Below are positions 2,101 through 44,875 of a stretch of DNA of 46,020 nt, one piece after another. Position numbers and translations under genes: made by a program. The notes under the pieces were generated by a model. That model was not told the DNA's origin and searched no databases. It saw nothing but the letters and a program-made list of their open reading frames with translations. Origin of the DNA: a virus; IMG/VR virus record IMGVR_UViG_3300021410_000052, positions 1-46,020 of that record, one strand, 5' to 3'. The stretch's first letter is position 1. Each line of letters opens with the position of its first letter.

Positions 2101-2102
2101 GC

Positions 2103-3779
2103 ATGGCGCGCATGTACCCGCGGGAATTGCCGCGACATGTTCTGGAAAACCCGAAACTGTCGTCGGAGGTCCGCGTCTACGAGCGGATGCGGGACAAGTT
2201 GCCCGGAGACTTCAACTGCTACTATTCACGCTCCTGGCATGAAGCGGATACCGATGGCGCCGAGTTCGACGGAGAAGCGGACTTCATTGTCGCGCACGCC
2301 GAACACGGCCTCCTGTTCCTCGAGGTCAAGGGCGGGAGGGTGAGCTGCCGCGAGAACGATGGCCAGTGGCTCAGCGAGGATCGTGACGGGTTCAGATTCA
2401 GGATCAAGAACCCGCTGTCTCAGGCGCGCAGCAGCAAGCACCATTTCCTGAAGCGCCTGAATGCCGGCAAGATGCTCCGAGGCCGTTTCATCCGGGCACG
2501 CCATGGTGCGATCCTTCCTGGGAGCGTCAGACCCGCACGCGCCCTCGCGCCGGATGCGCCGCTCGACATAATCGCATTCGGCGACGACATGGACGCCCTC
2601 GATCGCTGGATTATCCGGCGGATGACCGACGGTGGCGACTTGCGCGAAAGCCCCCTCGGTCTGGATGGTCTCAGGGCGCTTGAAGAGCTTCTTGCAAGCC
2701 ATTTCGAGCTGAAGGCACATATCGGCATCAGCCTTGCCGACGACGCCAGAACCATCGAGCGGCTGACGGCTGAACAGGCCTGGATCCTCGACTCGCTTGA
2801 AGACAACAGGGAAATGGCGATCTCGGGAGGAGCCGGCAGTGGAAAGACAGTACTGGCTGTCGAAAAGGCGATCAGATCGGCCGCCGAGGGCCGCCGGACG
2901 CTCCTGACCTGCTTCAACGCTCCGCTGGCATCTCATCTGCGCAGCGTCTGCCAGGGTCATGAAAACCTGGTGGTGGCCAGTTTCCATGCGTTGTGCCGGA
3001 CCTTGGCGCACAAGGCCGGAGTCGACGTCCCCACAGAGGGTGACCAGTCCCTTTTCGACCGCCTGCTGCCAGAAGCACTTGTCGAAGCAGTCGGCAACAA
3101 TCCCGATCTGGCCTTCGACACCGTCATCGTCGATGAGGGGCAGGACTTTCGAGACTCATGGTTGAACTCCCTGCGCCTTGCGATCAGCGACCCCGAAAGC
3201 GGGAGCTTCTATGTCTTCTATGACGACAACCAGCGCCTGTTCTCGCCCGAGAGGGGGTTCATAGATGCTCTTCCTGCATCGTCGATTGCACTGACGCGCA
3301 ATCTTCGGAACACGCGACGAATTCATGCCCTGATGACGAAGTGGTATGAGGGACGCCGTAGCACACCCGCAGGACCGGAGGGGGAGCCGGTAGGCAGCCT
3401 CGTTTGTCGCAATGGGGAAATGGCTCTTTCCCGCGTGAGCGATCGTGTCGCGCAACTTCTTGGCTCCGGTCAGGTCCTGCCGGGGCAGATAGCGATACTC
3501 GTGGGAGGTGGCCGTACATCGATGTCACTGCCGGACAAGATTGCCGGGAAGCCGACCTGCCGTTCCGATGATGTCCGGTCGGATCATATCGTCCTTGACA
3601 CAGTCCGGCGCTTCAAGGGGCTGTCACGCCCATGCGTGTTTCTTGTCGGCATCGATGGGCTGACTGATCCCGAACTGATCTACGTCGCGACAAGCCGGGC
3701 GAACGTCCTGCTGGAAATCGTTGGTACAGCCGAGGACATCGCACGCATCAAGCAGGAGGTTGAGGCCACTGGTCGGTGA
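2103..3779 (+). CDS. NERD-domain nuclease fused to UvrD/Rep-like helicase
   Basis: A 558-residue protein. The N-terminal NERD (nuclease-related) domain, about 20-130, has a PD-(D/E)XK-like core: D60 in GEADFIV, then E74 and K76 in LEVKGG. A superfamily 1 helicase follows, with Walker A GAGSGKT at 243-249, Walker B DEGQD at 344-348, an RNLRNT motif in the middle, and late motifs VRRFKGLSR and YVATSRA. It probably unwinds and cuts DNA in the cytoplasm. It begins two bases after drmB, which ties it to that operon. In described DISARM loci this position is usually held by the PLD nuclease DrmC, so this protein may supply the nuclease function here (inference). It ends convergently, 29 bases from the methyltransferase gene. 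Confidence 0.85.
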   Translation: MARMYPRELPRHVLENPKLSSEVRVYERMRDKLPGDFNCYYSRSWHEADTDGAEFDGEADFIVAHAEHGLLFLEVKGGRVSCRENDGQWLSEDRDGFRFRIKNPLSQARSSKHHFLKRLNAGKMLRGRFIRARHGAILPGSVRPARALAPDAPLDIIAFGDDMDALDRWIIRRMTDGGDLRESPLGLDGLRALEELLASHFELKAHIGISLADDARTIERLTAEQAWILDSLEDNREMAISGGAGSGKTVLAVEKAIRSAAEGRRTLLTCFNAPLASHLRSVCQGHENLVVASFHALCRTLAHKAGVDVPTEGDQSLFDRLLPEALVEAVGNNPDLAFDTVIVDEGQDFRDSWLNSLRLAISDPESGSFYVFYDDNQRLFSPERGFIDALPASSIALTRNLRNTRRIHALMTKWYEGRRSTPAGPEGEPVGSLVCRNGEMALSRVSDRVAQLLGSGQVLPGQIAILVGGGRTSMSLPDKIAGKPTCRSDDVRSDHIVLDTVRRFKGLSRPCVFLVGIDGLTDPELIYVATSRANVLLEIVGTAEDIARIKQEVEATGR

Positions 3780-11473: not shown

Positions 11474-14400
11474 TCAGAACTGCAGCGTGACGCTGCTGGG
11501 CGCGCCCCGCCCGAGGCGGGCGGAGAGCTGGAAGATGCGGAAGGCGAGCGTGTCGCCGGGCGCGAGCGGCGCGCCCCAGTCGGTCGTCTGCTGGGCGGCG
11601 CTGTAGAGAACGGACGTGGTGCTGCTGGTCAGCACCCGCTTCACTGCCGTGCCGTCACGGATCTCGACCTCGTAGCCCTCGACCTCTTCCCCGAGCGGCA
11701 CCTCGACCTGTTCCCAGGCATCGGCCTCGAGCGCGCGGGAGCGCCGGGTCCATCGGATGGTGAGGTCGCCGGGGCTGCGGGCCTGCCGCCAGGGCTGCGC
11801 GACATGGACCGGCGCGAAAGGGCGCAGGCCCATGCCCGCAGGTGTGAAGGCCTGCGCGACATAGGTCTCGTCCGAGGGCGGCCGGGTTGCCGGACCCACG
11901 CGCCAGTTCCATGGCAGGCCGATGTCACCGAGCGCGCTGGGCAGCGGCGCGAGCGTGCTGTCGAGCACCACCACCCGCGCTCCGGCCGGCGCCGGGTTCC
12001 CCATTGCCCCCTCCGTCCCGCGCTGGCCGCGCAGGAGGCGGGTCAGCCGGTAGCGTCCCGGCGCAATCAGCTCCGCAGTGCCCGCCTGGACGATCTCCCA
12101 GACCCCGGGGCTGGCCTCGACGGCCAGTGCATTGGCCCCGCCGAACAGGGCCAGATCAGTGACGCTTTCGAGCGAGCCGGTGAAGAGGTCGAGCGTCAGG
12201 GCATTGCCGAGATCGAAGCGCGAGATCGGTCCGGGCCAGAGATCGAAGGCCAGCACGCCCATCCGCGCCCGCGACGGCACGGTGGTCAGCAGTTCGAACC
12301 CGTCGCTGCCGGGGCTCCGGAAGACGGCAAGCTCGCCGGGCCAGGGCCGCGCATGGGCGGCGAGTAAGGGCCGGTGCGCTGGCTGGTCCTCGGTCAGCTG
12401 CGGAAGGTCGAGGAAGGCGACCTCGGGTGCTGCCAGCACCAGCGGGCGCGCGAGCGTCGCGGGGCGCGGATCGCCGGGCGGCAGCTCGTAGGCGGCGCGG
12501 TCCTGGCGGATCGCGTCGATCCCGCGCGCCTCGGCATCGGCGGTGGACAGGAGCCGGAAGTCGAGGCTGCGCCCGTCGTGCAGGAGCCGGATCACGTCGG
12601 CGGGGTCGAGCGCGAGGCGCGAGGGTGGCAGGCGGAAGCTCGCGGTCTCGCGGCCGATCCAGGCTTCCATCAGCGCGCGGCGGCAGCGGCGTTCGGCCTC
12701 CTCGGGCGCGACCGCCATCGGGAAGGCTTCCGAGGCGATGCGGCTCGCGGAGACGGTGATGCGCTGCGCCTCGACCTGTGCGGCGTCATAATCCTCGTCG
12801 GCCCGCGCCAGCTGCCACTTGAGCGCCTGCGGCAGTTCGGTCTCCTGCGCCCGGGTCAGTTCCAGCCCCTCGGCGCGAGGATCGGGGGCGGCGACGAGAT
12901 CGTCGGCACCGATCTCGGCCACGGCGGCGCGGCCGCGCATGACGAAGCGGATCACCCCGCCGGTTTCCACGGCATCGAACCCGAAATGCCGCGCGAGCGT
13001 GGTGATCGAGGCGCGGGGGCTTTCCAGCGCCCCGATGACATAGCCCTCGACCGCGCCCCAGAGCCCGGAGACGTCGATGCGATGGGCGGGCAGCCCGGCG
13101 CGCAGGCAGAGGTGCCGGACGAGCGCCGCCAGCGACACCGCCCCCAGCCGTCCGGTCAGCCAGTGGCCGAGCCGCCAGTTGGGGCCGTCCGTCCAGACGC
13201 CGGTCAGCGCCGGGAAGAACGGATAGGGCCGCGCGTCCCAGGTCCAGGCTGCGCATTCGTGGACGTGCACCATCCGGCCGCCGTAGATGGAGGACAGCGG
13301 GTTGTTCGCCGGATCGTTCCACCAGAGCCAGGTCGCCTCGAGATAGGCGCGCTGGATCGCGTCGTCGCGCCAGCCGCGGGAGAAGTACGGGGTGAAGCTC
13401 TCCGACGACTTCGGATCGAAGAAGACGTTGGGCTGGTTGGTGCCCCGGTCGATGGCCGGGCAGCCGAGTTCGGTGAACCAGACGGGCTTCGATTGCGGCA
13501 CCCATGCGGTGGGCGTTGCGCTCTCCACCCCGCCCGGGCGGTTGAAGTGGGGCTCCGACCACCAGGCGCGCAAATCCTTGTAGCGGAAGACCCATGGTTT
13601 GCCGACGGCGCCATCGGTGATGAGCGTGCGCAGCTGTGCCGAGCGGTCGGCCTCCGAGGCATAGAACCAGTCGAAGCCTTCGCCGCCTGCAATGTTGGCC
13701 TGCAGGTAGCCCCGGTCATGGATCGCGGGCCAGCCTTGCAGGGCATCGGCGTGCTCGAATCCGTCCCGCCAATCCGACAGCGGCATGTAGTTGTCGATGC
13801 CGATGAAGTCGGTGTTGGTGTCTGCCCAGAGCGGATCGAGGTGGAAGAAGACATCCCCGCTGCCGTCGCCCGGTTGGTGGCCGAAGTATTCCGACCAGTC
13901 GGCGGCGTAGCTGATCTTCGTTGCAGGGCCGAGGATGCTGCGCACGGCCGCAGCGAGATCGCGGAAGGCCTGCACGGCCGGATAGGTGGACGCGCCCGAG
14001 CGGATGGTGGTCAGCCCGCGCATCTCGGAGCCGATCAGGAAGGCATCGACGCCCCCGGCAGCGGCGCAGAGATGGGCGTAGTGCAGGATCATCCGGCGCA
14101 GGCCCCAGTCGCCTGCGGGGCCGGTCCAGCTGACGGTCTGGCCCGACACAGAGAAGTTCGCGGGGGTTGCGCTGCCGAAGAAGCTCGCGACCTGCGTGGC
14201 CGCCGTGGCGGTCTTGTCCACGCTGCCCGCGAACCCCGCAGCCGGAGAACAGGTGATCCGCCCGCGCCAGGGGAACACGGGCTGGCCGGTCTCGGCGGCA
14301 TTGTCGCTGTAGGGGTTCGGCAGCGTGTTGGCAGGCGGCACGTCCATCAGGATGAACGGGTAGAAGGTCACGCGCAGCCCGCGGGCCTTCATCTCCTGGA

Positions 14401-15472
14401 TCGCCTGGACGACAGCGAAGTCGGCGGGCGTACCGCCATAGACGGGCCGGTCCTCGCTGTCGCGACTGACCAGATGCGCGGCGGTGCGGCCGACGCCGTT
14501 CACCGACCAGACGCGGGGGCTCGTTGCCTTGGCCGCCACCTCGACGCCCGGCTTGACTTGGCAGTTGCCCGCGCGCAGGTCGGTGCCGAACCAGGCGACG
14601 ACGAGGCTGACGCTCTCGACCGCAGGCGCCATGGCCTGCAGCCGGTCGAGGGCGACGACGATGTCGGCGGTGTCCGGCAGCGCATTCAGGTTCTCGGCCG
14701 TGGTCGTCCCGCCGCTCGTGCCGCCGAAGGCCCCGCCCGTGGTCTTGCGGATCGCCTGCGTCGCATAGGTGAACTCGCCCGAGGCGGGGATCATGGTGAC
14801 AGCGCGCGTCAGCCCCTCGGCGGTGTCGGGATCGGCAAGCGGGCGGAACACCTCGAAGCTCAGCTGCGGGATACGGTTCCCGAAATCCCCCAGCGGCAGT
14901 TCCTCGAACACGACATAGGCGGTGCCGCGATACGCGGGCGTGTTCGCCGCGCCCATCTTCGCCGCGATGAACGGGTCGGGGGCCTGCGCCTCGTCGCCCG
15001 CATACCAGCGCATGGTGATGCCGGTCAGGTCGAGCGGCTTGCCGTCTGCCCAGATGCGGCCGATGCCGGTGATCGAGCCCTCGCAGAGCGCTACGGCGAA
15101 GGACGCATAGCAGAGATACTCGGTCGTCCGGACCTTGCCGCCGCCACCGCCCTTGCCCCCACCGCGCTGCGTCGTTGTCCGGGTCTCCTCGCGGAAATCG
15201 GTGGCCCAGACGATGTTGCCGCCGATGCGCATGCGACCAAAGAGGCGCGGGATGACGGCGCCCTCGGTGGACGAGGTGATGCGTAGCGTGTCGAGCCGCG
15301 CACCTTCGATGCGCTGCGCAGGAGCCAGAGACGAGACGATCCAGCTGTCGACGACCGCGCCAACGCTGGAGCCGATGAAGCCGCCGATGGTGGCGGCACT
15401 GACGCCAAGAATAGCACCGCCGATCGAACCGCCAATGGCGGCGCCGGCCGCGCCGAGAACGAGGGTGGCCAT
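11474..15472 (-). CDS. GTA-type tail tip 'megatron' (TIM-barrel-like, gpJ-like) protein
   Basis: A 1332-residue host-specificity protein. The N-terminus is a Gly/Ala-rich hydrophobic stretch (residues 1-50) usual in this family. It is followed by a tail-attachment region, then a glycoside-hydrolase TIM-barrel-like domain at about 390-760 (segments GGVDAFLIGSEMRGL, ISYAADWSEYFGH, WFTELGCPAIDRG), then gpJ/tip-type domains (ALKWQLARADEDYDAAQVEA) and a C-terminal fibronectin-like part. It forms the central tip of the tail and may cut surface glycans and contact the envelope. GGAG lies before the ATG at 15472. It is separated from the NlpC/P60 gene by an inserted plus-strand gene; in GTA clusters the two are normally adjacent. 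Confidence 0.9.
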   Translation of the reverse strand: MATLVLGAAGAAIGGSIGGAILGVSAATIGGFIGSSVGAVVDSWIVSSLAPAQRIEGARLDTLRITSSTEGAVIPRLFGRMRIGGNIVWATDFREETRTTTQRGGGKGGGGGKVRTTEYLCYASFAVALCEGSITGIGRIWADGKPLDLTGITMRWYAGDEAQAPDPFIAAKMGAANTPAYRGTAYVVFEELPLGDFGNRIPQLSFEVFRPLADPDTAEGLTRAVTMIPASGEFTYATQAIRKTTGGAFGGTSGGTTTAENLNALPDTADIVVALDRLQAMAPAVESVSLVVAWFGTDLRAGNCQVKPGVEVAAKATSPRVWSVNGVGRTAAHLVSRDSEDRPVYGGTPADFAVVQAIQEMKARGLRVTFYPFILMDVPPANTLPNPYSDNAAETGQPVFPWRGRITCSPAAGFAGSVDKTATAATQVASFFGSATPANFSVSGQTVSWTGPAGDWGLRRMILHYAHLCAAAGGVDAFLIGSEMRGLTTIRSGASTYPAVQAFRDLAAAVRSILGPATKISYAADWSEYFGHQPGDGSGDVFFHLDPLWADTNTDFIGIDNYMPLSDWRDGFEHADALQGWPAIHDRGYLQANIAGGEGFDWFYASEADRSAQLRTLITDGAVGKPWVFRYKDLRAWWSEPHFNRPGGVESATPTAWVPQSKPVWFTELGCPAIDRGTNQPNVFFDPKSSESFTPYFSRGWRDDAIQRAYLEATWLWWNDPANNPLSSIYGGRMVHVHECAAWTWDARPYPFFPALTGVWTDGPNWRLGHWLTGRLGAVSLAALVRHLCLRAGLPAHRIDVSGLWGAVEGYVIGALESPRASITTLARHFGFDAVETGGVIRFVMRGRAAVAEIGADDLVAAPDPRAEGLELTRAQETELPQALKWQLARADEDYDAAQVEAQRITVSASRIASEAFPMAVAPEEAERRCRRALMEAWIGRETASFRLPPSRLALDPADVIRLLHDGRSLDFRLLSTADAEARGIDAIRQDRAAYELPPGDPRPATLARPLVLAAPEVAFLDLPQLTEDQPAHRPLLAAHARPWPGELAVFRSPGSDGFELLTTVPSRARMGVLAFDLWPGPISRFDLGNALTLDLFTGSLESVTDLALFGGANALAVEASPGVWEIVQAGTAELIAPGRYRLTRLLRGQRGTEGAMGNPAPAGARVVVLDSTLAPLPSALGDIGLPWNWRVGPATRPPSDETYVAQAFTPAGMGLRPFAPVHVAQPWRQARSPGDLTIRWTRRSRALEADAWEQVEVPLGEEVEGYEVEIRDGTAVKRVLTSSTTSVLYSAAQQTTDWGAPLAPGDTLAFRIFQLSARLGRGAPSSVTLQF

Positions 15473-15732
15473 ATGGAAGCTCCAGATTTATGAGCAAAGC
15501 TCACGCCAAGAAGCATTCGCGCCAACTCGACCGTGATCTAAAGGTAGGGTGCGGTTAAGTGGAGCCGTCCAGGCTCGAACGGTGTCGAGTGTAGGTGATG
15601 CGCGGCCGTCTACCGGCCAAGCGACACCAACTACGATCTGCTCTAACGCTGTAGCCCCCATGCAAGTGCGCTGCTACTCTTTGGGAGCCCCCAGTAGCTG
15701 TGGGCCACTCCGATCCTGAAGAGGGCCGTCAA

Positions 15733-16332
15733 GTGTCAGAGGTAGCATACGTTCTCCTGGGAGCCTTTGTTGGCGGTATTCTCACGTATTTCACGACCCT
15801 CAGGAGCCTGTTTAACCAGTCTGTGGTAGATGAGCGGAAGGACTGGAGGGATGAGGTCCGGAAGATCACGCTCGACGTTATACAAGCCGTAGAAAAAGGT
15901 GCATCGCGGGATTTGACTGCGCTGCGACACCACTTGGCTATCCGCCTCAATCCCAGAGATCCAAACGACAACGCGATACTCAACTGCGCTATCCTGCAGG
16001 GTGGCGAGACATGCGACTGTGCGGTTGATGAGTTCGTTTCCCGAGTCTCGATCTTGCTGAAACATGACTGGGAAAGAGCGAAACTCGAGACAAGCTTCCT
16101 CAAAAGACATTTTGTTCAGCCCCACAGGCCGAGCTTTTGCGAAGTGAAGGACTCCCCAGAGACCGCCAAGTTTCGGAAGCTCACTCGCTTCAGCAGGTTC
16201 TTCGCGCCCGTCATCGTGATCCTCCTTCTCGGTGTGATCGTTCCGCTTATCGCCGAGCCTCACCTTTCGCCGCTTGTCGAGCGTTGGAAGAGTGGCGTGA
16301 ACTTCATCTGGTCACTGATCGGCGTGGAATAG
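15733..16332 (+). CDS. Two-TM membrane protein of unknown function (moron candidate)
   Basis: A 199-residue protein if started at GTG 15733, where GAAGAGGG lies about 7 bases upstream; an earlier GTG at 15700 gives 210 residues but has no ribosome site. It has an N-terminal membrane segment (about 4-22, YVLLGAFVGGILTYF), a charged ERKDWRDEVRKITLD stretch, a soluble ~120-residue middle with several cysteines (CAILQGGETCDCAVDEF), and a second membrane segment near 155-175 (VIVILLLGVIVPLIAEP). It is the only plus-strand gene inside the tail-tip operon, with its own 260-base upstream gap and visibly lower GC. These are marks of a moron expressed from the lysogen, perhaps for superinfection exclusion. 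Function unknown. Confidence 0.75.
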   Translation: MSEVAYVLLGAFVGGILTYFTTLRSLFNQSVVDERKDWRDEVRKITLDVIQAVEKGASRDLTALRHHLAIRLNPRDPNDNAILNCAILQGGETCDCAVDEFVSRVSILLKHDWERAKLETSFLKRHFVQPHRPSFCEVKDSPETAKFRKLTRFSRFFAPVIVILLLGVIVPLIAEPHLSPLVERWKSGVNFIWSLIGVE

Positions 16333-16370
16333 AGCCGCTTTCTCCAGCGCACATCTGCCGTCAACTCTTC

Positions 16371-16817
16371 TCAGTTTCCGGCCCTGACCATTGGGAAGAA
16401 GAATGCGAAGGCGATGCGCCGCCGCCAGACTTGGGTGAGCGGTTCCTCGATCACACCGAGCCCCTCATAGGCATGGAGAAATGTGGCGGAGTTGGTCAGA
16501 ATGCCGACATGCTTGGCACTGGCGCGGGGCATCATGCGAAACAGCACCAGCGCGCCGGGACCGGCCTCCGCGGGCGACAACTCGATCATCATGGCGCGCG
16601 CGCCTTCCGCCAGCGCCTCGCGCGGCCCGATCTCGCCCCAGTCCCGGCTGTAGGGCGGGATCGGAAAGGGCTCGGGGCCGACCACCTCGCGCCAGACGCC
16701 GCGCGCAAGCCCGAGGCAGTCGCAGCCGACGCCCTTCAGGCTGGCCTGATCGTGGTAGGGCGTGCCGAGCCAGGCACGGGCGGCAGTGATCACCCTGTCG
16801 GGGTTGGACGCCCTCAC
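16371..16817 (-). CDS. NlpC/P60 tail peptidase (GTA gp14-type)
   Basis: A 148-residue cysteine peptidase. The catalytic Cys34 lies in GCDCLGL and the His in SAKHVGILT; FLHAYEG follows near the end. Phage NlpC/P60 proteins cut peptidoglycan peptide stems locally during DNA entry and sit at the tail tip. Its ATG overlaps the stop of the DUF2163 gene (ATGA), matching the order DUF2460-DUF2163-NlpC-megatron of Rhodobacter GTA and related phages. Its 3' end faces the plus-strand moron, 38 bases away. Confidence 0.9.
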   Translation of the reverse strand: MRASNPDRVITAARAWLGTPYHDQASLKGVGCDCLGLARGVWREVVGPEPFPIPPYSRDWGEIGPREALAEGARAMMIELSPAEAGPGALVLFRMMPRASAKHVGILTNSATFLHAYEGLGVIEEPLTQVWRRRIAFAFFFPMVRAGN

Positions 16818-17698
16818 AGCACCGCCCCGTCGTGGCCGCCATCGCGCGAGGCGTAGCGCAGAATGGTGTCCTGCCCCGGGATATGCGGGAAGCCCCGGAA
16901 GTTCGCGACATTCCCGAACTTCGCGCTGCAGGTGGCCAGCCGCTTGTCGCAGCCCGCGCGGGCGATGAAGTTGTCGCCCTCGGCAATGGCACGCACAGGC
17001 GGCTCCAGCAACGTCAGGATCGCAAGCCCGTCGACCAGATCATGGGCCAGCACCTCGGCCCGCCGCCCGGCATTGACGCCGGAGATCCACTCGACCGTGC
17101 CATGGTTGAGCCAGCCCGCCGCGAAGCTGCCGAGCCCTGCGGCCGTGAACGCCCGGTCGCGCAGGATGTCGGTGACCGCGCCCGCGCCCCGGAACGCCGC
17201 CACCTCGAGGTTCACGCCGCAGCGGCTGTCGCCCAGCGCGGCGTCGCAGCCCGCCTGAAACGTCCGCCCGACCGTCTGGCCCAGCACATGGGCAAGGCTG
17301 CGCACCTCGGCCACGAAGGCCACCCGGCCGCGCCGCACCTGGCCGATGGCCCCCCGGCGCAGCAGCACGCGCTGGCCGGGATCGGCCCAGTTCACCCGCC
17401 AGAGCTCGACCTCGGCATTGTCCCAGCGGCCATCGAGGATGTCGGTCTCGGTGATCCGGTCCGAGGAGAGCACCCCCTCGGCATCCTGCGCATCGACCGA
17501 GAGGTCCGATCCTGCCCGCACCTCGGAGGCCGTGAAGCCGCTTTCCGGCTCGAACTCGGTGCCCTCGAAGCTGAGCGTCCGGTCGTGGTCGGTGAAGCCG
17601 AAGGCCACGCCATCGGCGCGTGTGATGCGCCAGCACCAGGCCAGCGTCGTGGTGCCCTCACTGAGATGCGCCTGCAGGGCGGGGGCGAGCTGCTTCAT
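16814..17698 (-). CDS. DUF2163 tail protein (GTA gp13-type)
   Basis: A 294-residue protein of the DUF2163/phage_BR0599 type. It begins MKQLAPALQAHLSEG and has FGFTDHDRTLSFEG early, then GRTFQAGCDAALGDSRCGVN and a C-terminal CDKRLATCSAKFGNVANF with FPHIPGQD. In RcGTA the homologue is part of the baseplate hub and may bind an iron-sulphur cluster through conserved cysteines; paired cysteines are visible here. The ATG at 17698 overlaps the DUF2460 stop. A longer frame to 18064 lies antisense-like over DUF2460 and is rejected. Confidence 0.88.
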   Translation of the reverse strand: MKQLAPALQAHLSEGTTTLAWCWRITRADGVAFGFTDHDRTLSFEGTEFEPESGFTASEVRAGSDLSVDAQDAEGVLSSDRITETDILDGRWDNAEVELWRVNWADPGQRVLLRRGAIGQVRRGRVAFVAEVRSLAHVLGQTVGRTFQAGCDAALGDSRCGVNLEVAAFRGAGAVTDILRDRAFTAAGLGSFAAGWLNHGTVEWISGVNAGRRAEVLAHDLVDGLAILTLLEPPVRAIAEGDNFIARAGCDKRLATCSAKFGNVANFRGFPHIPGQDTILRYASRDGGHDGAVL

Positions 17699-18321
17699 CT
17701 GCGGATCTCCAGAAGCGGAATGGAGGCGATCGAGCCGAGGCGCTCGAGGTCGAGCGTCACGTCGAGCGTGTCGGTGTCGAAGCGGACGGCGGTGTCGAAC
17801 TCGAAGCCCGCGGTGACGGGGACGCCTGCGCCGGGGGCCGAGCCGAAGGTGACGAGGCCGGTGGTCGTGTCGACGGACCAGCCCGAGAGCTGCTCGGTCC
17901 CGCCCAGCGCGACGCGCACCGTGCCCGCGACGGGCTTGGTGATCGCCCGTGTCCAGAACTGCGGGCCGGAGGCGTAGCGCTTTGCCAACTGGAACGCCGT
18001 CCTCACCCCGTCGCCGGTGCCGAGCGGCTGGTCCAGCGGCGAGGGCGTGCCCGAGGGTAGGCATGACTTGTGATCGCCCCAGTCCTTGAAGCGAAAGCCG
18101 TGGAGGCGCCCGTTGCGGGCCTCGAAGAAGGCTACGACGGCGGCGAGATCGTCGGCGCGGCGGATGCCGTAGGCGACGTCGTAGCGGCGGCGCGAGTTGG
18201 CCCAGCTCGCGTTGCGCTCCTCGTCGCCGCTCGCAAGTTCCACCACCTGCGTGCGCCGTTCCGGCCCGCCGCGCGCGCCACGGCTGATCGCGTCCGGAAA
18301 CCGGACCTCGTGAAAGGACAT
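17695..18321 (-). CDS. DUF2460 distal tail protein (GTA gp12-type)
   Basis: A 208-residue protein matching the DUF2460 family: it starts MSFHEVRFPDAISRGARGGP and contains RRADDLAAVVAFFEARNGR, HGFRFKDWGDHKS and GDGVRTAFQL. In RcGTA the homologue is the distal tail protein that joins the tube to the baseplate hub. It lies 11 bases after the tape measure gene and overlaps the DUF2163 gene by four bases. Confidence 0.9.
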   Translation of the reverse strand: MSFHEVRFPDAISRGARGGPERRTQVVELASGDEERNASWANSRRRYDVAYGIRRADDLAAVVAFFEARNGRLHGFRFKDWGDHKSCLPSGTPSPLDQPLGTGDGVRTAFQLAKRYASGPQFWTRAITKPVAGTVRVALGGTEQLSGWSVDTTTGLVTFGSAPGAGVPVTAGFEFDTAVRFDTDTLDVTLDLERLGSIASIPLLEIRR

Positions 18322-18332
18322 GCTCGGGATCC

Positions 18333-20507
18333 TCAGAGACCGCGGCGGCCCATCGACACCGCGCGGGCGATGTCGGCGGCGACTTGTGTCCGCGAATGGC
18401 GGAAGCTGTCCGCGTCGCGGGTCATGATGGTGACGTTGACGGAGGGCGCGCTGCCGCGCCCGCCGTATCCCGCAGCCTCGCGGCGCGAGAGCACGCGCTC
18501 GCCGCGCTGCAGGATGGCAGGCACCTCGTCCGGCTTCAGCCCGACCCAGCCGCCGGAATGCATCCGTGGTGCGCCGGCGAAGGCCAGAGCCGGGACCATC
18601 CGGCCGGGACCGGGAGCGCCCACCGTGCCCCCTGCGTGCAGGACCGAGGCGAACATGCCCCCGGCCCCGCCGAGGACGCCCGACAACAGCCCCGCCAGCG
18701 GACCCAGGATGAAGCGCCGCGCGGCGAGCCGGGCGAGATCGGCGATCATCGAGGTCACCAGATCGCGGAAGTCGAGCTTGCCCTTGCGCACGAAGTCGGC
18801 GACCGCGGTCTCGGCCGCGCCGAACGCCCCAACCAGCGCCTGGCCAATATCGGCCCCGATCTCACGCGCCCTTGCGGCATAGTCGGCGAGCGCGGCGGTG
18901 ACCGCCTGCCAGCCGGTTACGGCTTCCTCGGCACCGGTGGCGGTCTGGGTTCCGGCCTCGCGCCCGGCGGCGCCCGCGCGGCCGGCCGAGGTTTCCGCCT
19001 CATCCAGCGCTTCCGCGACGCGCCGGGCCCCGGCGGCGGCGGCATCGAGCGCACCCTCGGTTTCCGCGCCCGACCCGCGCACCGCCTCCACGAGCGCGGT
19101 GACCGCCTCGCGGACGCCATCGAAGGCGCCTGCGCGGGTGTCCGCCGCGCGCTGGCGGAAGCGTTCGGCCATGGTACCCGCGTTGCTCGCGGCATGATCC
19201 AGCATCGAGGCCCAGGACTGCGCGCCGAACCAGTCGATCTGGAAATCCGCGCCGATCCGGTCGGCCACGGCGTTGAAAGTCGGCCCGATCATCCCGAGGA
19301 AATCGGCCCATTTGCCTGCGAGGAAGGCCATGAGCCGCGTCCAGATGCTCTCGATATCCACGCGCAGGGCCCGGAAGTCGTCGACCAGCGAGCCCATCGT
19401 GGTCTTGATGCCGTCCCAGACCGCGCGGGCCACGTTGCCCATCAGCTCCAGTGCGTTCCCGAAGCCCCCGGCACCCGTGACGAGGCGAGAGAACTGGTAG
19501 ACCAGCTCGCCTGCGCCGACGATCAGCGCGCCGATGCCGGTGCGGATCAGCGCCCCGCGCAGGACCACCAGCGCCGTGGCCAGCCCCCGGACCGACAGCG
19601 CCGCCGCCGCCAGCCCGGCAACCCAGCGCCCGGCCATCAGGGCGGCGAAGGTGGCGGCATAGGAGGTGAGACGCCCGAGGTTGTCGAACACGGTCCGGAT
19701 CGCGATGCCGAGCGGACCGGTGGTGCGCGCCACCGCCGCCATGGCATCGGCCACGGCCTCCAGCGCGGGCGCAGCGGCGACGGCGAGCTGGTTCGAAAGC
19801 CCGCGCCAGATCAGACCCAGCCGCGAGATGGCATCATTGGTCCGCTCGATCTGGCGCGCGTCCTGATCGGAGACCACCACCCCGAAATCCCGCACATCCT
19901 GCGTGGCCTGCCGCAGCGTGGCCGTGTCGATCCGGGTGAAGACCAGCGCCGCCCGGTCGCCGAAGAGCTGCGAGGCGACCGATGCGCGCTCGGCCTCGGG
20001 CACGAGATCCGCGAGCCGATCCTGGATCAGCGCGATCCGCTGGTCGAGCGGCAGGGCCTGCAGCTCTCCCGCCGACAGCCGCAGGCGGCGCAGGGCTTCC
20101 GTCGCGGGTCCGGCCCCGGCGGCGGCCTGGCTCAGCCGCCGCGTCAGCTGCATCGCCGCCTGCTCGACCTGGCCCATCGACACGCCCGCCAGATCGCCCG
20201 CGCGCTCCAGCACCTGAATGCTCTCGACTGTGGTATCCAGCGAGGCCGCAAGCTTCGCCTGCGCATCCACGACGGACAGCCCCGAGCGGATCATCGCCGT
20301 GGCCGCCGCCGCCAGCGCCCCGGCTGCTGCCGCCGCCGCGATCCGCGCGCGCCGCGCGAAGGCGGCAAGCCGGGTGTTGGCAAGCTCCATCTCTCGCGAC
20401 AGCCGTCCGAAGCCGCGCGCCCCGGCCTCGCCGACACCCTCCAGTTCGGCACGCACCTGCCGACCGCCCACCGCCGCAAGGCGGACGGATACGCGTTTCT
20501 CCGTCAT
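18333..20507 (-). CDS. Tail tape measure protein
   Basis: A 724-residue, Ala-rich, mostly helical protein located directly after the frameshifted tail chaperone genes. The N-terminus (MTEKRVSVRLAAVGGRQVRA) leads into long coiled-coil-like stretches, with hydrophobic segments at about 55-75 and 265-320 (AAALSVRGLATALVVL) that may insert in the host membrane on ejection. The C-terminal part (KGKLDFRDLVTSMIADLARL, then a Gly-rich end) matches lambda_T-like tape measure ends. Tape measure proteins set tail length at about 0.15 nm per residue, which would give a tail of roughly 110 nm (estimate). It follows the siphovirus order exactly. Confidence 0.9.
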   Translation of the reverse strand: MTEKRVSVRLAAVGGRQVRAELEGVGEAGARGFGRLSREMELANTRLAAFARRARIAAAAAAGALAAAATAMIRSGLSVVDAQAKLAASLDTTVESIQVLERAGDLAGVSMGQVEQAAMQLTRRLSQAAAGAGPATEALRRLRLSAGELQALPLDQRIALIQDRLADLVPEAERASVASQLFGDRAALVFTRIDTATLRQATQDVRDFGVVVSDQDARQIERTNDAISRLGLIWRGLSNQLAVAAAPALEAVADAMAAVARTTGPLGIAIRTVFDNLGRLTSYAATFAALMAGRWVAGLAAAALSVRGLATALVVLRGALIRTGIGALIVGAGELVYQFSRLVTGAGGFGNALELMGNVARAVWDGIKTTMGSLVDDFRALRVDIESIWTRLMAFLAGKWADFLGMIGPTFNAVADRIGADFQIDWFGAQSWASMLDHAASNAGTMAERFRQRAADTRAGAFDGVREAVTALVEAVRGSGAETEGALDAAAAGARRVAEALDEAETSAGRAGAAGREAGTQTATGAEEAVTGWQAVTAALADYAARAREIGADIGQALVGAFGAAETAVADFVRKGKLDFRDLVTSMIADLARLAARRFILGPLAGLLSGVLGGAGGMFASVLHAGGTVGAPGPGRMVPALAFAGAPRMHSGGWVGLKPDEVPAILQRGERVLSRREAAGYGGRGSAPSVNVTIMTRDADSFRHSRTQVAADIARAVSMGRRGL

Positions 20508-20525: not shown

Positions 20526-21190
20526 TCAGCCGCGCTCGGCGGCGAGGGTTTCATTCAGGCGGCGCACCATCACCGCCTCGATGGGCGGCAGGAACTCGGC
20601 CATGGCCAAAGGCGGGACGCCCAGCGCGCGGCCCAGCGCGAGTGCCGCACCCATGTCCCAGCCGATCACCGCGCCGGGGAGGATGCGCAGCTGGCCGCCG
20701 AGGCGTTGTGCGAGGTCCCAGACCTGGATGCCTTCCCAGCTCAGCGGCTGGTTCAGCCTTGCGGGGCAGTCCGGGCAGCCTTGCGGGCACGCCGCGCAGT
20801 AGCCTTCGCCCCCGCCGTAGGACCAGTCGGCGAGAGCGCGGAGGCGTTTTTTTCCTGTTCCAGCAGCAGGCCCTTCGCGACATAGGCCGCCTGGAACGCC
20901 TCGAAGGCGGGCCAGATTTCGAGGAGCGCGTCGATGCCCTCGGGGCTGACACCGACAGGGTTGCCCTCGGCATCGCCGACGCCTTCCCAGTCCAGCACCG
21001 CGCGTCGGGCCACGGCCTTGGCCATGGCGAGCGCCAGTTCCTCGGTCGTGGCCTCGGGCGGCAGGGTCTCGACCGCCGGATCGGCGCGCGCGGACACCAT
21101 CAGCGCGGTGGTCAGCGGGCGCAGCCTCAGCCGCACGCCGGGCAGCAGATCGAGCCAGCGCGGCGCGTTCGTCAGGTCGAGCGTGAGCAT
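20526..21190 (-). CDS. Tail assembly chaperone GT fusion made by -1 ribosomal frameshift
   Basis: Reading the upstream chaperone frame to Asn115 and then shifting -1 at the AAAAAAC heptamer (20846-20852) gives a continuous 221-residue protein ending at the TGA at 20526-20528. The added 106 residues are free of stops and look like real protein: a Cys-rich YCAACPQGCPDCPAR segment, then LSWEGIQVWDLAQRLGGQ and a helical PPIEAVMVRRLNETL end. This second frame has no ATG or GTG in a usable place and no ribosome site near its overlap with the first gene. This matches the G/GT arrangement of siphophages, in which the fusion recruits the tube protein to the tape measure. Direct proof is lacking. Confidence 0.72.
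20753..21190 (-). CDS. Tail assembly chaperone (G-like)
   Basis: A 145-residue protein in the normal frame, starting at ATG 21190 and sharing one base with the tail tube stop (TGATG). It contains PGVRLRLRPLTTALMVSARA, EALDWEG-like AVLDWEGVGDAEG and PAFEAFQAAYVAKG, consistent with the phage tail assembly chaperone type found before tape measure genes in GTA-like clusters. After residue 115 the tail becomes Ala/Arg-rich low-complexity (TARRARKAARTAPQG), as would be expected if that end is a by-product and the -1 frame is the selected one. Confidence 0.8.
   Translation of the reverse strand: MLTLDLTNAPRWLDLLPGVRLRLRPLTTALMVSARADPAVETLPPEATTEELALAMAKAVARRAVLDWEGVGDAEGNPVGVSPEGIDALLEIWPAFEAFQAAYVAKGLLLEQEKNASALSPTGPTAGAKATARRARKAARTAPQG
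20846..20852 (-). promoter_or_regulatory. Programmed -1 frameshift slippery heptamer (A AAA AAC)
   Basis: On the minus strand the bases read GAA AAA AAC in the chaperone frame, inside a run of seven A. This is the canonical X XXY YYZ slippery site: tRNAs on AAA and AAC can slip back one base and keep pairing. The -1 frame after it is open for 106 codons. The downstream sequence is very GC-rich and could form the stimulatory structure, which I have not folded. Confidence 0.75.
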
Positions 21191-22134
21191 CAGTACGTCT
21201 CCCTCTCGTTCACCAGCGTCACCGTGCACATCTGCCCCAGCACTGGATCGACCGCCGCCTGCCAGTCGAAACTGGCCTGGATGCCTTGCGGCCCCGGCAC
21301 CTCGACGCGCGGGCGCGGCAGGTAGACGGCGTGGATGGTGAAGGTCAGGCTCTCGCCCGAGGGCAGCGACCAGCCGAGCTCGATCTCGCACGGATCCCCG
21401 GCGATGGCCTGGTTCGCCAGCACCTGATCGGCGAAGCGCACCTCCATCCGGCCCGTGAGCGCCGCCATGCCGGGGTCGGCGCCGTCGATCCGTCCGTCGG
21501 CGCGGATGGTCTCGATGCGGTCGAGGTTGTTGGCATAGGTGACCTCGGCGGTGACGAGGTTCCCCAGCGCCGCGCCGTTGCGCGTGACCGTGCCGTTGAA
21601 ATGGCCGAAGCGCAGCAGGTCGAGCGCGGCCGGTGTGCCCGCGGCGGTGGTCGCAGCAAGCGCCTCACCCTGCGCGACCAGCCGCGCGGTGGCGGTCAAG
21701 AGCCCCGCGCGCTGCATCTGGAACGAGAGCTGATCGACCACACAGCCTGCGTACATGGCAAAGCGCGGCACCTCGGGCATGGCGACCTCGATGGCCATCG
21801 AGGGCAGCACCCAGCCGCCCGAACGGAACTCGTGCGTGAAGGGGCCGGGCGCGGTGCCGGTGGTCGTCGGCGCCCCGAACGCCCCCTTCAGCCAGAAGCC
21901 GAAGGCATTGGCGTCGATCGGGACGACCACGTCGCCATCCGCGGTCAGCGCATCCTTGATCGGCGCCAGCGGATCGCGGCCGTAGCCCAGAAGCTCGGAG
22001 TTCAGGAGCGGCTGCTCGGCCCCCAGCGTCGTGCTGGCAAACGGCATCCGCGTGTAGCCGCTGGCGGGCGGCGTGCCATAGGTCGTATCGAACGCCAGCG
22101 CCATCTGCGCCCGCGCCCCATGGGCTCGTGCCAT
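21190..22134 (-). CDS. Major tail tube protein
   Basis: A 314-residue protein placed between the tail terminator-like gene and the tail chaperones. It has segments typical of tube proteins of this phage group: FDTTYGTPPASGYTRMPF, GDVVVPIDANAFGFWLKGAF, GCVVDQLSFQMQRAG and VTAEVTYANNLDRIETIR. It should stack in rings to form the tail tube. It is the largest protein of the tube region and mostly beta by composition. The assignment is from gene order plus resemblance; I cannot verify the fold. Confidence 0.82.
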   Translation of the reverse strand: MARAHGARAQMALAFDTTYGTPPASGYTRMPFASTTLGAEQPLLNSELLGYGRDPLAPIKDALTADGDVVVPIDANAFGFWLKGAFGAPTTTGTAPGPFTHEFRSGGWVLPSMAIEVAMPEVPRFAMYAGCVVDQLSFQMQRAGLLTATARLVAQGEALAATTAAGTPAALDLLRFGHFNGTVTRNGAALGNLVTAEVTYANNLDRIETIRADGRIDGADPGMAALTGRMEVRFADQVLANQAIAGDPCEIELGWSLPSGESLTFTIHAVYLPRPRVEVPGPQGIQASFDWQAAVDPVLGQMCTVTLVNERETY

Positions 22135-33851: not shown

Positions 33852-34067
33852 TTACCGCGCGCTGATTGCCTCAAACAGCCTGCGCAGGGCGTAGCCCCGG
33901 ATCAGGGAGATCGCGGTGAAGATCCCGCCCAGCGCCAGGTTCTCACCGAGGCTCGGGTTCAGGCCGAACCATGGGAACACCACGATCTGCGTGGCGATTG
34001 CCAGCGCGTAGCCCACGGCGACATTGGCGATGGCCTCAATCAGCGACATGCGGCGCGACTGCGTCAT
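33852..34067 (-). CDS. Small two-TM protein (DUF7220-type)
   Basis: A 71-residue protein starting at ATG 34067 and overlapping the end of the methyltransferase gene by four bases. It begins MTQSRRMSLIEAIANVAVGY, then has two hydrophobic segments (about 12-30 and 42-58, with LALGGIFTAISLIRGYALRR at the second). This matches a small membrane family found beside phage DNA methyltransferases, which I recall as DUF7220. Function unknown. The longer frame to 34175 is rejected because it covers the methylase gene. Confidence 0.75.
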   Translation of the reverse strand: MTQSRRMSLIEAIANVAVGYALAIATQIVVFPWFGLNPSLGENLALGGIFTAISLIRGYALRRLFEAISAR

Positions 34068-35440
34068 GACCGCTTCCTCGGCCGGTGCGCCGGTTTTCTG
34101 GCCTCCTCCTGTTCGCTGATTCGGTGGGCCGCTCGCCCCGTCGCCATCTCCCACCGTCGCACGGCGACGTCGCAATAGATCGGGTCCAGTTCCACGGCAC
34201 AGCAGCGCCTCCCGGTGCGTTCGGCGGCGATCAGCTGGGTGCCGGAGCCGCAGAAGGGCTCGAACACCAGGTCGCCGGGATCGGTGAAGGCCTCGAGCAC
34301 CACCTCGACCAGCGCCACCGGGAACACGGCCGGGTGCGATCCGGCGGCGCCCAAGCCTCCTTTGTGGCGCATGATGCGGAAGACGCTGTCCGGAATGCGG
34401 TGGCTCTGAATCGCGTTACCAAAGCCAGTCTTGCGATGGACCGTGCCGTCGGCCCCGCGCAGACCACCGCCGCCAAGGGTTTCGCCCGCGTGCTTGCTCG
34501 CGACCGTCTTGTTCGGCTTCCGGGGCTGCCGGTTGAAGTGGAAGATGAACTCGTGCGACGGCGCCAGCCGCCCGTTCCAGTCACCGGGAAGGCCGGGCCC
34601 CTGGTCCCAGACATACCAGCCGAACCGCCGCCAGCCCTGCGCGCGCATCCAAAGGGTCCAGTCGTCCCAATACGGGATCCATTCGCCATCGCGGTGGACG
34701 AGGCCGAGGTTGACTAGCAGCTGGGCATCGGCGGTGACGGGCGCCGAGGTGAAGACGCCCTGCATCAGCGCATCCCAGTCACCGACCTTCTCCTTCGCGG
34801 CGCCATAGTCGCGCTGCTGGGCATAGGGCGGGGAGGTGAACATCAGCGAGGCCTGCGCGCCATCCATCAGCCGTGCCACTACACCCGGATCGGTGGCATC
34901 GCCGCAGATCAGGCGATGTTCGCCCAGCGCCCAGATGTCGCCCGGCCGGGTGATAGGTTCGGCCGGGGCATCGGGGATCGTATCGGCGGTGTCATCGTCG
35001 ATCGGCGCGCGGTCGTCGTCGGCGTCGTGCAGCAACGCGTCCAACTCGTCCTCGGGGATCCCGATCAGCCCGAGGTCGAAATCCTCGGCCAGCAGACCCC
35101 GCAGCTCCTCGACGAGCAGGGCGTCATCCCATCCCCCCAGTTCGGTCAGCCGGTTGTCGGCGATCCGGTAAGCGCGACGCTGCGCCTCGGTCAGATGGTC
35201 CAGCACGATGACCGGTGCCTCGGCCAGCCCGAGCTGCGCGGCGGCCAGCACGCGGCCATGGCCTGCGATCAGCTCGCCGTCGGCGGCAACGAGGCAGGGG
35301 ACAGTCCAGCCGAACTCGGTCATGCTCGCAGCGATCTTCGCCACCTGGTCGTCGTCGTGGGTCTTGGCGTTCCGGGCGTAGGGTTTCAGCCGATCCAGCG
35401 GCCAGAAGGCGATCTGGCTCGGGCGCAGATGCATCGTCAT
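34064..35440 (-). CDS. ParB-like domain fused to DNA methyltransferase (TSPPY type)
   Basis: A 458-residue protein. Residues 15-125 form a ParB N-terminal-like domain (LIAGHGRVLAAAQLGLAEAP, AYRIADNRLTELGGW). The methyltransferase follows, with catalytic motif IV FTSPPYAQQRDYG near 210 and motif I FEPFCGSGTQ near 405, i.e. the order IV-then-I of beta-class amino-methylases. TSPPY is commonly an N4-cytosine motif, so it may make N4-methylcytosine, but N6-adenine cannot be excluded. It is paralogous to the next gene and overlaps it by four bases. Likely role: protect phage DNA from host restriction. Confidence 0.88.
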   Translation of the reverse strand: MTMHLRPSQIAFWPLDRLKPYARNAKTHDDDQVAKIAASMTEFGWTVPCLVAADGELIAGHGRVLAAAQLGLAEAPVIVLDHLTEAQRRAYRIADNRLTELGGWDDALLVEELRGLLAEDFDLGLIGIPEDELDALLHDADDDRAPIDDDTADTIPDAPAEPITRPGDIWALGEHRLICGDATDPGVVARLMDGAQASLMFTSPPYAQQRDYGAAKEKVGDWDALMQGVFTSAPVTADAQLLVNLGLVHRDGEWIPYWDDWTLWMRAQGWRRFGWYVWDQGPGLPGDWNGRLAPSHEFIFHFNRQPRKPNKTVASKHAGETLGGGGLRGADGTVHRKTGFGNAIQSHRIPDSVFRIMRHKGGLGAAGSHPAVFPVALVEVVLEAFTDPGDLVFEPFCGSGTQLIAAERTGRRCCAVELDPIYCDVAVRRWEMATGRAAHRISEQEEARKPAHRPRKRS

Positions 35441-36699
35441 GCTGCGTGCCGCTGGGCTTTCAGGGCCGTAAACGTCTCGCCGGTTTCTGCCAGCACGGCC
35501 TCCTGACCCGTGAAGACTTGCCAGCGCTCGATGGCCACGTCGACATAGGCCGGGTTCAACTCAATGCCGAGGCAGACACGGCCTGTTGTCTCGGCCGCGA
35601 TCAGGGTCGTGCCGGATCCCATGAACGGTTCATAGACCGCCTGACCAGGGCTGGAGTTGTTCAGGATCGGCCGCCGCATGCATTCCACCGGCTTCTGCGT
35701 GCCATGCACCGTGTCGGCATCCTGATCCCGGTTGGCGATCTGCCAGAGCGTCGTCTGTTTGCGGTCCCCGGCCCAGTGGCCCTTGCCCTTGGCGCGCACC
35801 GCATACCAGCAGGGTTCATGCTGCCAGTGGTAATCGCCTCGGCTGAGGACCAGCCGGTCCTTGGCCCAGATGATCTGCGACCGGATGGCGAAACCCGCTG
35901 CGGTCAGGCTGTCGGCCACGGTCGCAGCATGCAGCGCGCCGTGCCAGACATAGGCGACGTCGCCGGGGAACAGCGTCCATGCCTCGCGCCAGTCTGCCCG
36001 GTCGTCGTTCAGCACCTTGCCGGTGCGTTTCGTCTTGGCCGCGCCCGCCTGGTTGCGCCAGGAGGGATCGTATTCGACGCCATAGGGCGGATCGGTCACC
36101 ATCAGCAGGGGACGCACATCGCCGAGCAGCCGCCCAACCACATCGGCCGCGGTGCTGTCGCCACAGATCAGCCGATGCCCGCCCAGCTGCCAGAGGTCGC
36201 CAGGCACCGACACCGGCGTGACCGGCAACTCGGGCACATCGTCCTCGCCCTCGATCGGACCTTCCCCGCCCAGCGCCTCGGGATCCCGCAGCAGCGCATC
36301 GAGGTCATCGTCGCTGATGCCGAGCAGGGTCAGGTCGAAATCCTCAGCCAAAAGCTCCGCGATCTCGTCGCGCAGCAGGGCCTCGTCCCACTCGCCCAGT
36401 TCCGTCAGCTTGTTGTCGGCAATCCGGTAGGCCCGGCGTTCCGCCTCGTCGAGGTGGCTCAGCCGGATCACCGGCGCCTCCGTCAGCCCGAGCATCGTGG
36501 CCGCCAGCACCCGGCCATGGCCCGCGATCAGTTCGCCGTCGTCGGCCACCATGCAGGGGACGGTCCAGCCGAACTTGGCCATGCTCGCGGCGATCTTCGC
36601 CACCTGGTCGGCGCCATGCATCTTGGCATTGCGGGCATAGGGGCGCAGTCGGGCAATCGGCCAGGACTCTACCTGGCTCGGCGCGAAGACGAGGTCCAT
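35437..36699 (-). CDS. ParB-like domain fused to DNA methyltransferase (TDPPY type)
   Basis: A 420-residue paralogue of the previous gene. The ParB-like part has GELIAGHGRVLAATMLGLTE and AYRIADNKLTELGEW, clearly similar to its neighbour. Motif IV is VTDPPYGVEYD, motif I is YEPFMGSGTTLIAAE near the C-terminus, so this is also beta class; DPPY points to N6-adenine methylation. It is the first gene of a three-gene minus-strand operon. The two fusions probably arose by tandem duplication and then changed specificity, which would give the phage two different protective marks (inference). Confidence 0.88.
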   Translation of the reverse strand: MDLVFAPSQVESWPIARLRPYARNAKMHGADQVAKIAASMAKFGWTVPCMVADDGELIAGHGRVLAATMLGLTEAPVIRLSHLDEAERRAYRIADNKLTELGEWDEALLRDEIAELLAEDFDLTLLGISDDDLDALLRDPEALGGEGPIEGEDDVPELPVTPVSVPGDLWQLGGHRLICGDSTAADVVGRLLGDVRPLLMVTDPPYGVEYDPSWRNQAGAAKTKRTGKVLNDDRADWREAWTLFPGDVAYVWHGALHAATVADSLTAAGFAIRSQIIWAKDRLVLSRGDYHWQHEPCWYAVRAKGKGHWAGDRKQTTLWQIANRDQDADTVHGTQKPVECMRRPILNNSSPGQAVYEPFMGSGTTLIAAETTGRVCLGIELNPAYVDVAIERWQVFTGQEAVLAETGETFTALKAQRHAA

Positions 36700-37216: not shown

Positions 37217-39067
37217 TCAGACAGGAACTGGAAAGAAGCCGTACCGGCCCTGGTTCGGGTTTTTCGTGAAGACCGAAACATTGGCAGCTTCAGCCACCAA
37301 GGGCTGCGGATGCTCGTTTTCTACGATGATGATCTGGGCATTGTCTTTGAAACCGATCAGATACTCATAAAAGCGTTCTTTGATGTCTGTCCCGCGCAGA
37401 TCGTCGTCGTCACCTTCCGGCTTCCAGTATGCAAGAAGCGGAGAGTCGAGAATGACGAAACCGGGATGCGGGAGTCCGCGCTCAAGGCAAAACTCAAGCA
37501 GCCCAATAGTGACCGCAGCGTGCGAAATTGCTCTCAATCCTTTGCCGCTGCTACCGCGCGCTTTGCCAGCTATCTGGAAGTCTCGGGTAGTCTCATCAAA
37601 GAAGACACGCTGCGCGTTTGGGTAGTGCCATGCAGCCAAAATGCGCTCGACCGTCTGTGAAAACTCATCAAGGGTTGATTTTGATATGATCGTCTTGGTC
37701 TCGGTTGGCTTGCCGTCGCCACCGTCCCCGGACTCAAGATCATCGCGCTGATCGATCAGGCGCTTGAGGCGCTTGAACTTCTCAAGAACGGAATTCACCT
37801 CGGCACGCTTGGAAATGAGCTCATTATATGAGCTGCGTTTTGTGGATAGTTCGGGTCTCGCGATGTCTGAGAGCTCACCATCGAGTGTGGCGTAACGTTC
37901 GGAATACTTCGGTAGCTCGCCGTTTATCCGGTCACGCTCACCTTCCAGCGTTGCGACCGTATCCCGAAGCTCGAATTGCAGCTTCCTGATCTTGTGCATC
38001 TCGGCAATCGCGGCCAGCAGAACGGCCTCAACGTTGCCGTCGCAATCCGAATCCCGATGCTGATCTTCGGGATTTGAGCCGCAGAGCGGACAAATTTTCC
38101 GATCACTGTGAACGAAAAGTGATCCAGCCTCACGGATAGATTCCAGACGTTTGAGGTCAGTCGAATAATGGTCATCAAGAAGCGCGAAGCGCTTGGTTAG
38201 CTCCGCGATTTCAACTAAGCGCGCGCGACGTTTGTTGATCTCCGATGCCGCTGCTGCCCTGTCCTCAATCAGTGCATTCAAGGTTCCTTGCGCGGCGCTG
38301 AGTTCATCGTTGCACTCTTCGATACTGCCCTCTAGTTTTGATAGCTGGTCGAGAAGTTCTTCTTGATCATGCCCTTCTTCATCGATTTCGATTTGCAGCT
38401 CTTCAATCATTTGGGTCAGTAATTCGACCTTGCCGGAAACGGACTCGCGCACGCGCCCGGCTTCAACCGTTCCGACGAGAGCACTGTCATCGGTGCCGCT
38501 GAGAAGAAGTTTGAAGGCGGCATACTCCGATGTGGCCTGGGTGTATTGACCGGTCTGAAACGGCGAGCTCCGCCGCTGAATTTCTTCTTCAGTGACGACG
38601 CAAAGACGAGCGATGTCGCGAATACTTGCCGTTCTCGTTGCCCCGGCCTTGTTCCTTCGAAGGTATTTTTCGGTGAGGCCTATCCGCTCAAGCAGTTCGT
38701 GAGAGAGCGTGTCTTGACGTGCCGCACTATGTTTCTCGCGCAGTGTTCGTGGATTAGTGCTCGGCAGACCATCAAGCAGCTCTTCCTGATAAGATGCAAA
38801 ATTTCCACCTTCGATACTGCGCTCAAGGCCCAGCAAAGGCCAACCTTTTGACTCGATGAGTAGGCGCACACGATCATATCCGGCGCGCTCGGGCACCTCA
38901 CGCGGCGGCTGCGTACCGCCCAGCATGAAGTCAAGACTCTCGACGATGAGCGATTTGCCGGTGTCGGAAGCACCACAGACCACATTCAAGCCGCGTTCAA
39001 AGGTTATGCTCGCGGGCTTTTTCCGTGGCCCAAGATAGGCAAGATGTCGAAGGAAGAGCCCGCTCAT
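37217..39067 (-). CDS. Rad50/SMC-like ATPase of an ABC-3C (Lamassu-like) system
   Basis: A 616-residue ABC-type ATPase. Walker A GASDTGKS is at 32-39, long coiled-coil arms span about 200-480 with a CPLCG zinc-hook motif (Cys326, Cys329), and a GSSGKGLRAI signature-like segment precedes FVILDSPLLAYW. In the last, Asp541 is the Walker B aspartate and the next residue is Ser, not the usual catalytic Glu. It resembles the DUF3732-type ATPases of ABC-three-component systems. It should sense phage DNA or its ends and license the partner nuclease. Its start overlaps the middle-component stop (ATGA). Confidence 0.85.
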   Translation of the reverse strand: MSGLFLRHLAYLGPRKKPASITFERGLNVVCGASDTGKSLIVESLDFMLGGTQPPREVPERAGYDRVRLLIESKGWPLLGLERSIEGGNFASYQEELLDGLPSTNPRTLREKHSAARQDTLSHELLERIGLTEKYLRRNKAGATRTASIRDIARLCVVTEEEIQRRSSPFQTGQYTQATSEYAAFKLLLSGTDDSALVGTVEAGRVRESVSGKVELLTQMIEELQIEIDEEGHDQEELLDQLSKLEGSIEECNDELSAAQGTLNALIEDRAAAASEINKRRARLVEIAELTKRFALLDDHYSTDLKRLESIREAGSLFVHSDRKICPLCGSNPEDQHRDSDCDGNVEAVLLAAIAEMHKIRKLQFELRDTVATLEGERDRINGELPKYSERYATLDGELSDIARPELSTKRSSYNELISKRAEVNSVLEKFKRLKRLIDQRDDLESGDGGDGKPTETKTIISKSTLDEFSQTVERILAAWHYPNAQRVFFDETTRDFQIAGKARGSSGKGLRAISHAAVTIGLLEFCLERGLPHPGFVILDSPLLAYWKPEGDDDDLRGTDIKERFYEYLIGFKDNAQIIIVENEHPQPLVAEAANVSVFTKNPNQGRYGFFPVPV

Positions 39068-40864: not shown

Positions 40865-43992
<3,128 letters not shown>

Positions 43993-43996
<4 letters not shown>

Positions 43997-44424: not shown

Positions 44425-44469
44425 GCGGTTTGACCTCGAAAATGGGTGGGATGAATGATGCCGGCCCGA

Positions 44470-44859: not shown

Positions 44860-44875
44860 GGCCGATCTCCTTGTG

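Follow-up and report, generated by a model that had tools for sequence, protein, structure and literature searches.

Gene arrangement at the locus

The window, i.e., the whole stretch of viral DNA analysed, comprises 46,020 bases with a GC content of 66.7%. Two overlapping reading frames are situated in it between the genes for the tail tube and the tape measure, on the minus strand, which the initial annotation left unstated. The features of the locus, from upstream to downstream, are:

21190–22134, minus strand: upstream tail tube gene (PF18906), its TGA and the ATG of G sharing bases in TGATG
20753–21190, minus strand: zero-frame G gene, tail assembly chaperone of 145 aa, from ATG to TGA (phrog_313, 7e-25)
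20846–20852, minus strand: slippery heptamer A AAA AAC, with the zero frame reading GAA AAA AAC
20753–20845, minus strand: zero-frame tail past the heptamer, rich in Ala, Arg, and Thr, where codon-like variation follows the −1 frame
20526–20846, minus strand: −1-frame T domain, 106 codons plus TGA, with codon-position variability and an AlphaFold2 model (mean pLDDT 92.6) in support
20807–20838, minus strand: RNA hairpin of 11 bp (20838–20828 paired with 20817–20807), with a 10-nt loop and a 7-nt spacer
20802–20845, minus strand: possible outer extension of the hairpin by 4 bp (20845–20842 with 20805–20802), from a single-sequence fold
20526–20681, minus strand: part of T covered by public families (PF24752 DUF7697, T residues 56–106; phrog_11212, T residues 53–105)
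18333–20507, minus strand: downstream tape measure gene (phrog_8462, 1.6e-165; PF09718)

The G gene starts with the ATG at 21190 and stops at 20755–20753 after 145 codons, and its product is assigned to a tail assembly chaperone family. The heptamer, which has the form X XXY YYZ, lies within the overlap at 20852–20846 in the register of the zero frame, as the initial annotation had read it. That annotation had also described a −1 frame free of stops for 106 codons up to the tape measure gene, and indeed the frame closes with the TGA at 20528–20526, shortly ahead of the tape measure gene, whose ATG is at 20507. The predicted GT fusion is 221 aa long (115 + 106). Two further statements proved accurate: the −1 frame lacks a normal start, the first ATG, GTG, or TTG from the upstream stop at 21212 being the GTG at 20669, 59 codons past the heptamer; and the zero-frame tail is Ala/Arg-rich after the site, with Thr also abundant.

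Because the DNA is 67% GC, the long open −1 frame, which in the window is already open from 21212, is itself little evidence. A single such heptamer in 46 kb is also ordinary, with a chance mean of 0.53 and at least one occurrence in 42 of 100 shuffles. The signal beyond chance is the conservation of the heptamer, not its bare presence.

Conservation of the heptamer among relatives

Conservation of the heptamer in relatives, a check proposed in the initial annotation, was scored at 80 loci from viral contigs and 80 from genome contigs, together with 12 further loci obtained via divergent queries and additional ones from sets of 385 and 398 whole genomes. The T domain was matched in 236 of these 240 loci (duplicates are retained in these counts), and 229 of the 236 carry an in-register heptamer: A AAA AAC at 213, G GGA AAC at 11, and A AAA AAA at five. 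The 229 include three weak T matches (L222–L224) that were counted only after a 3-nt shift. These three are very distant, T-like matches, in which G GGA AAC is directly followed by TGA; their arrangement suggests that a G/GT-type layout extends outside this phage family.

The seven rows without an in-register heptamer represent five distinct loci. At L164 (the same locus as L180), the site reads A AAG AAC, which is poorly slippery, and both frames are open. This locus is the one intact exception to the conservation of heptamer and frame offset in homologues, and the adverse case named in the initial annotation, loss of the heptamer with both frames kept, was encountered at this locus only. L150 (the same as L182) has an N at the slip site and a broken upstream frame, and L201 shows several shifts. 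In L231 and L193, the T end is fused to a tail tube-like sequence and to another upstream sequence, respectively, and both are remnants without G or the heptamer. The L150 sequence, CP059262.1, is titled Exiguobacterium profundum and holds two alphaproteobacterial-type prophage tail loci, both with an N near the slip site; the title looks mistaken.

We assembled a close set from 158 loci aligning to the window without gaps, which gave 118 sequences at <95% identity and 119 with the window. Excluded before this step were loci with gaps or a different length (32), loci on the minus strand (27), loci lacking matches (18), and truncated loci (4). The sequence GAAAAAAAC is present at the site in 117 of these 119 non-redundant close relatives (nr95). 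Elsewhere in G in the 119 sequences, Lys is usually encoded by AAG, with AAA at 40 of 276 codons, and GAA accounts for 277 of 985 Glu codons.

Selection on the two frames

In the 119 ungapped sequences, the variability at zero-frame codon positions 1, 2, and 3 before the site is 0.085, 0.055, and 0.244, respectively. The corresponding values for the −1 frame are 0.070, 0.039, and 0.137 in the overlap and 0.069, 0.055, and 0.230 beyond it; that is, the fastest codon position belongs to the zero frame ahead of the heptamer and to the −1 frame past it. Upstream of the site, within G, stops occur in the −1 frame in 95 of the 119 sequences, and the zero-frame stop 32 codons past the heptamer is retained in 116. 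The −1 frame is under protein selection and has no conserved start of its own.

RNA hairpin downstream of the heptamer

The silent sites past the heptamer are unusually conserved in the 119 sequences. All 10 scored pairs of the hairpin are possible in 113 of them and nine pairs in the other six; the pairs of the outer extension differ among relatives. Compared with synonymous codon shuffles, the hairpin in the close set has a mean z of −2.96, and the hairpin segment is the strongest along the gene pair, with a mean z of −2.25 in 40 of the 119 sequences.

In an alignment of 39 sequences, the covariation score and the percentage paired were above those of all 500 shuffles. There were five double-change pairs versus 3.4 in shuffles, with five reached by 69 of the 500; the observed value for pair types was reached by 76 of the 500; and a slide by +1 gave seven double-change pairs, more than the proposed hairpin. 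RNAalifold applied to all 39 sequences did not recover the full stem and returned 4 pairs only, one base out of register, and some insert-bearing relatives pair one base out of register. Since RNAalifold missed the full stem and the registers differ, we adopted a per-sequence synonymous-shuffle test. Among 40 sequences at <85% identity (nr85), an uninterrupted stem of 8 bp or longer is present in 30, and the stem test and the folding-energy test each gave p ≤ 0.05 in 26. Several distant relatives, such as L170, L171, L218, L176, L222, and L224, showed no significant hairpin. The search of Rfam across 701 bases returned nothing relevant, and a terminator-like match lies on the plus strand only. 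We regard the hairpin as real in the close set and in many of the distant relatives; nearly all members of the close set retain it, beyond what codon choice would give. It may stimulate frameshifting. Column variability, the measure applied to a Shine-Dalgarno-like stimulator upstream of the site, speaks neither for nor against one.

Structure and families of the T domain

The T domain is conserved from the first residue past the heptamer, including W8. Across 28 relatives, ten residues never vary. Four of them are cysteines, at T positions 17, 20, 24, and 27, each of which precedes the first possible internal start in the window. The cysteines form the motif C-x2-C-x3-C-x2-C, with a different middle spacing in some relatives. 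The AlphaFold2 mean pLDDT of 92.6 covers all 106 residues, so that the fold of T is confidently predicted, with a helix from residue 2. The −1 frame encodes a complete domain of 106 residues.

For T, the best viral fold match comes from Enterobacter phage F20, a tape measure chaperone, at an E-value of only 7.8e-3, and several other viral fold matches among the best 12 also bear the name tape measure chaperone. Among solved structures, no convincing match for T was found by Foldseek (best E 0.48) or by VIA-align (best Z 4.0, an AhpD-like chain with an rmsd of 7.3 over 96 aligned residues), and NCBIfam gave no match for the T of the window.

The −1 frame matches PF24752 DUF7697 with 91.4 bits, above the curated cut-off of 27 bits. 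DUF7697 and phrog_11212, both listed as of unknown function, share only the C-terminal half of T; they are without its first 52–55 residues and hence without the cysteine motif, seemingly because gene prediction programs choose an internal GTG or ATG as the start. The annotation is corrected accordingly, in that half of a conserved tail protein has been missed or shortened in public families. PF08809 DUF1799 has only weak similarity to T, matching 11 of the 28 T domains (best 7.5e-5), and none is listed for the T of the window. In phage VarioGold, DUF1799 comes after a tail assembly chaperone (PMC9658991).

Alternative explanations of the overlap

T could be a separate small gene that starts from an internal codon, the GTG at 20669 in the window, with no fusion being made. 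In 102 of the 119 sequences, T codon 60 is a GTG, DUF7697 and phrog_11212 begin near it, and the records of the Synechococcus and Nostoc phages show a second, separate CDS that begins at T codon 41. However, the conservation of T from residue 1 covers W8 and the four cysteines, all of them ahead of the first possible start in the window; six of the 119 sequences lack any ATG, GTG, or TTG through codon 59 of the −1 frame, and the position of the first one is not constant. In addition, GTG is equally frequent at V92 (116 of 119), and a separate gene would leave the conservation of the heptamer without a reason. We consider this explanation very improbable.

Slippage of RNA polymerase on the run of seven A, yielding mixed mRNAs, has in its favor the sequence G A7 C, the only run of seven A or T in the window, but 11 of the 229 sites read G GGA AAC, which has no long run and an identical register, and the hairpin is placed where a ribosomal stimulator is expected. 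Seven A are also short for polymerase slippage. This explanation, too, we consider very improbable. The two frames might instead be one gene split by an indel through sequencing error or decay. Homopolymer runs are error-prone, and L150 is faulty at the site; against this, the identical offset recurs in independent assemblies from many species, the zero-frame stop is kept as described above, and deposited Rhodobacter phages share the arrangement, so that we give an artifact or broken gene practically no weight.

Proposed mechanism and comparison with known systems

A programmed −1 ribosomal frameshift of the G/GT type found in long-tailed phages very probably explains the locus. Most ribosomes would stay in the zero frame and produce the short chaperone G, whereas a minority would pause at the GC-rich hairpin 7 nt past the heptamer. 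The tRNAs on AAA and AAC would then slip one base back, onto AAA and AAA, and reading would go on in the −1 frame to give GT, of about 221 aa. On the model of phage lambda, G would coat the tape measure protein, with the T portion recruiting the tail tube subunit.

Xu, Hendrix and Duda reportedly described the G/GT tail assembly chaperone frameshift of phage lambda and its conserved counterparts in 2004. The window shares with lambda the place between the tail tube and tape measure genes and, as predicted here, the −1 shift at a heptanucleotide late in G and the extended product. In contrast, its heptamer A AAA AAC differs from the G GGA AAG of lambda, and the conserved hairpin after the site and the four invariant cysteines of T are further differences. 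The lambda shift, its extended product, and the conserved counterparts are described in the review PMC5009743. A GeneTack paper includes A_AAA_AAC among consensus heptamers and gives 6–7% shifting as measured in a phage tail chaperone cluster (PMC3711429).

T homologues are present in 11 Rhodobacter phage records. RcKemmy, RcKai, and their relatives have a homologous T (51% identity) with an equal frame offset, and the joined −1 product is deposited as a CDS in RcKemmy and RcKai, the two records examined. The heptamer of RcKemmy is G GGA AAC, unlike that of the window. The paper on R. capsulatus phages mentions that a frameshift is usual in tail chaperone genes (PMC8601537). The G/GT interpretation given in the initial annotation is thus supported by the phrog_313 match and the gene position, and because the register is conserved, selection switches at the site, and Rhodobacter phages are deposited with the joined product, the locus is an ordinary, well-supported member of the G/GT frameshift family, whose mechanism is already known. 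The hairpin and the complete T domain are additions to that annotation.

A tentative extension, which we think somewhat unlikely, is that Alphaproteobacteria phages carry a distinct recoding cassette, with the heptamer and a stable hairpin at ~7 nt, a GT:G ratio above that of lambda, a T that may bind metal via its invariant four-cysteine motif, and DUF7697 as the truncated tail of the domain. The three heptamers and many hairpin arms constitute a natural series suited to measuring the effect of the hairpin on the chaperone ratio for tail length.

The Synechococcus- and Nostoc-named phages (L083 and L084) have tail regions that match and are related to Alphaproteobacteria phages, with the same site; these phages could in fact infect a bacterium accompanying the named host. 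The PF09550 pair in Rhodovulum L238 is presumably the g10/g10.1-like pair of a gene transfer agent (GTA). As in the window, a small gene lies there between chaperone-like and tape measure-like genes, but the g10.1-like gene has its own ATG, which overlaps the end of the upstream gene, and no shift is needed. GTA g10.1 was rejected as a frameshifted counterpart for L238 on account of this ATG.

Other genes in the window

GTA-type tail tip genes occupy 11474–18321 on the minus strand, namely a GTA_TIM/Rcc01698-like protein, NlpC/P60, a baseplate hub protein, and DUF2460. On the plus strand at 280–3779, two genes encode an MZB (MrfA Zn-binding) domain and a NERD nuclease with a UvrD-like helicase; next to the phage genes, they resemble a pair for defence or DNA repair. 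Two N6/N4 DNA methylases are encoded at 34064–36699, and an ABC-three-component system consisting of an AAA_23 ATPase, Middle Component 2, and a CTD6 protein lies at 37217–40675 on the minus strand. The R subunit of a Type I restriction enzyme and a specificity subunit follow at 40865–45880, also on the minus strand. Some of the DNA in the record may come from a host defence island surrounding a prophage.
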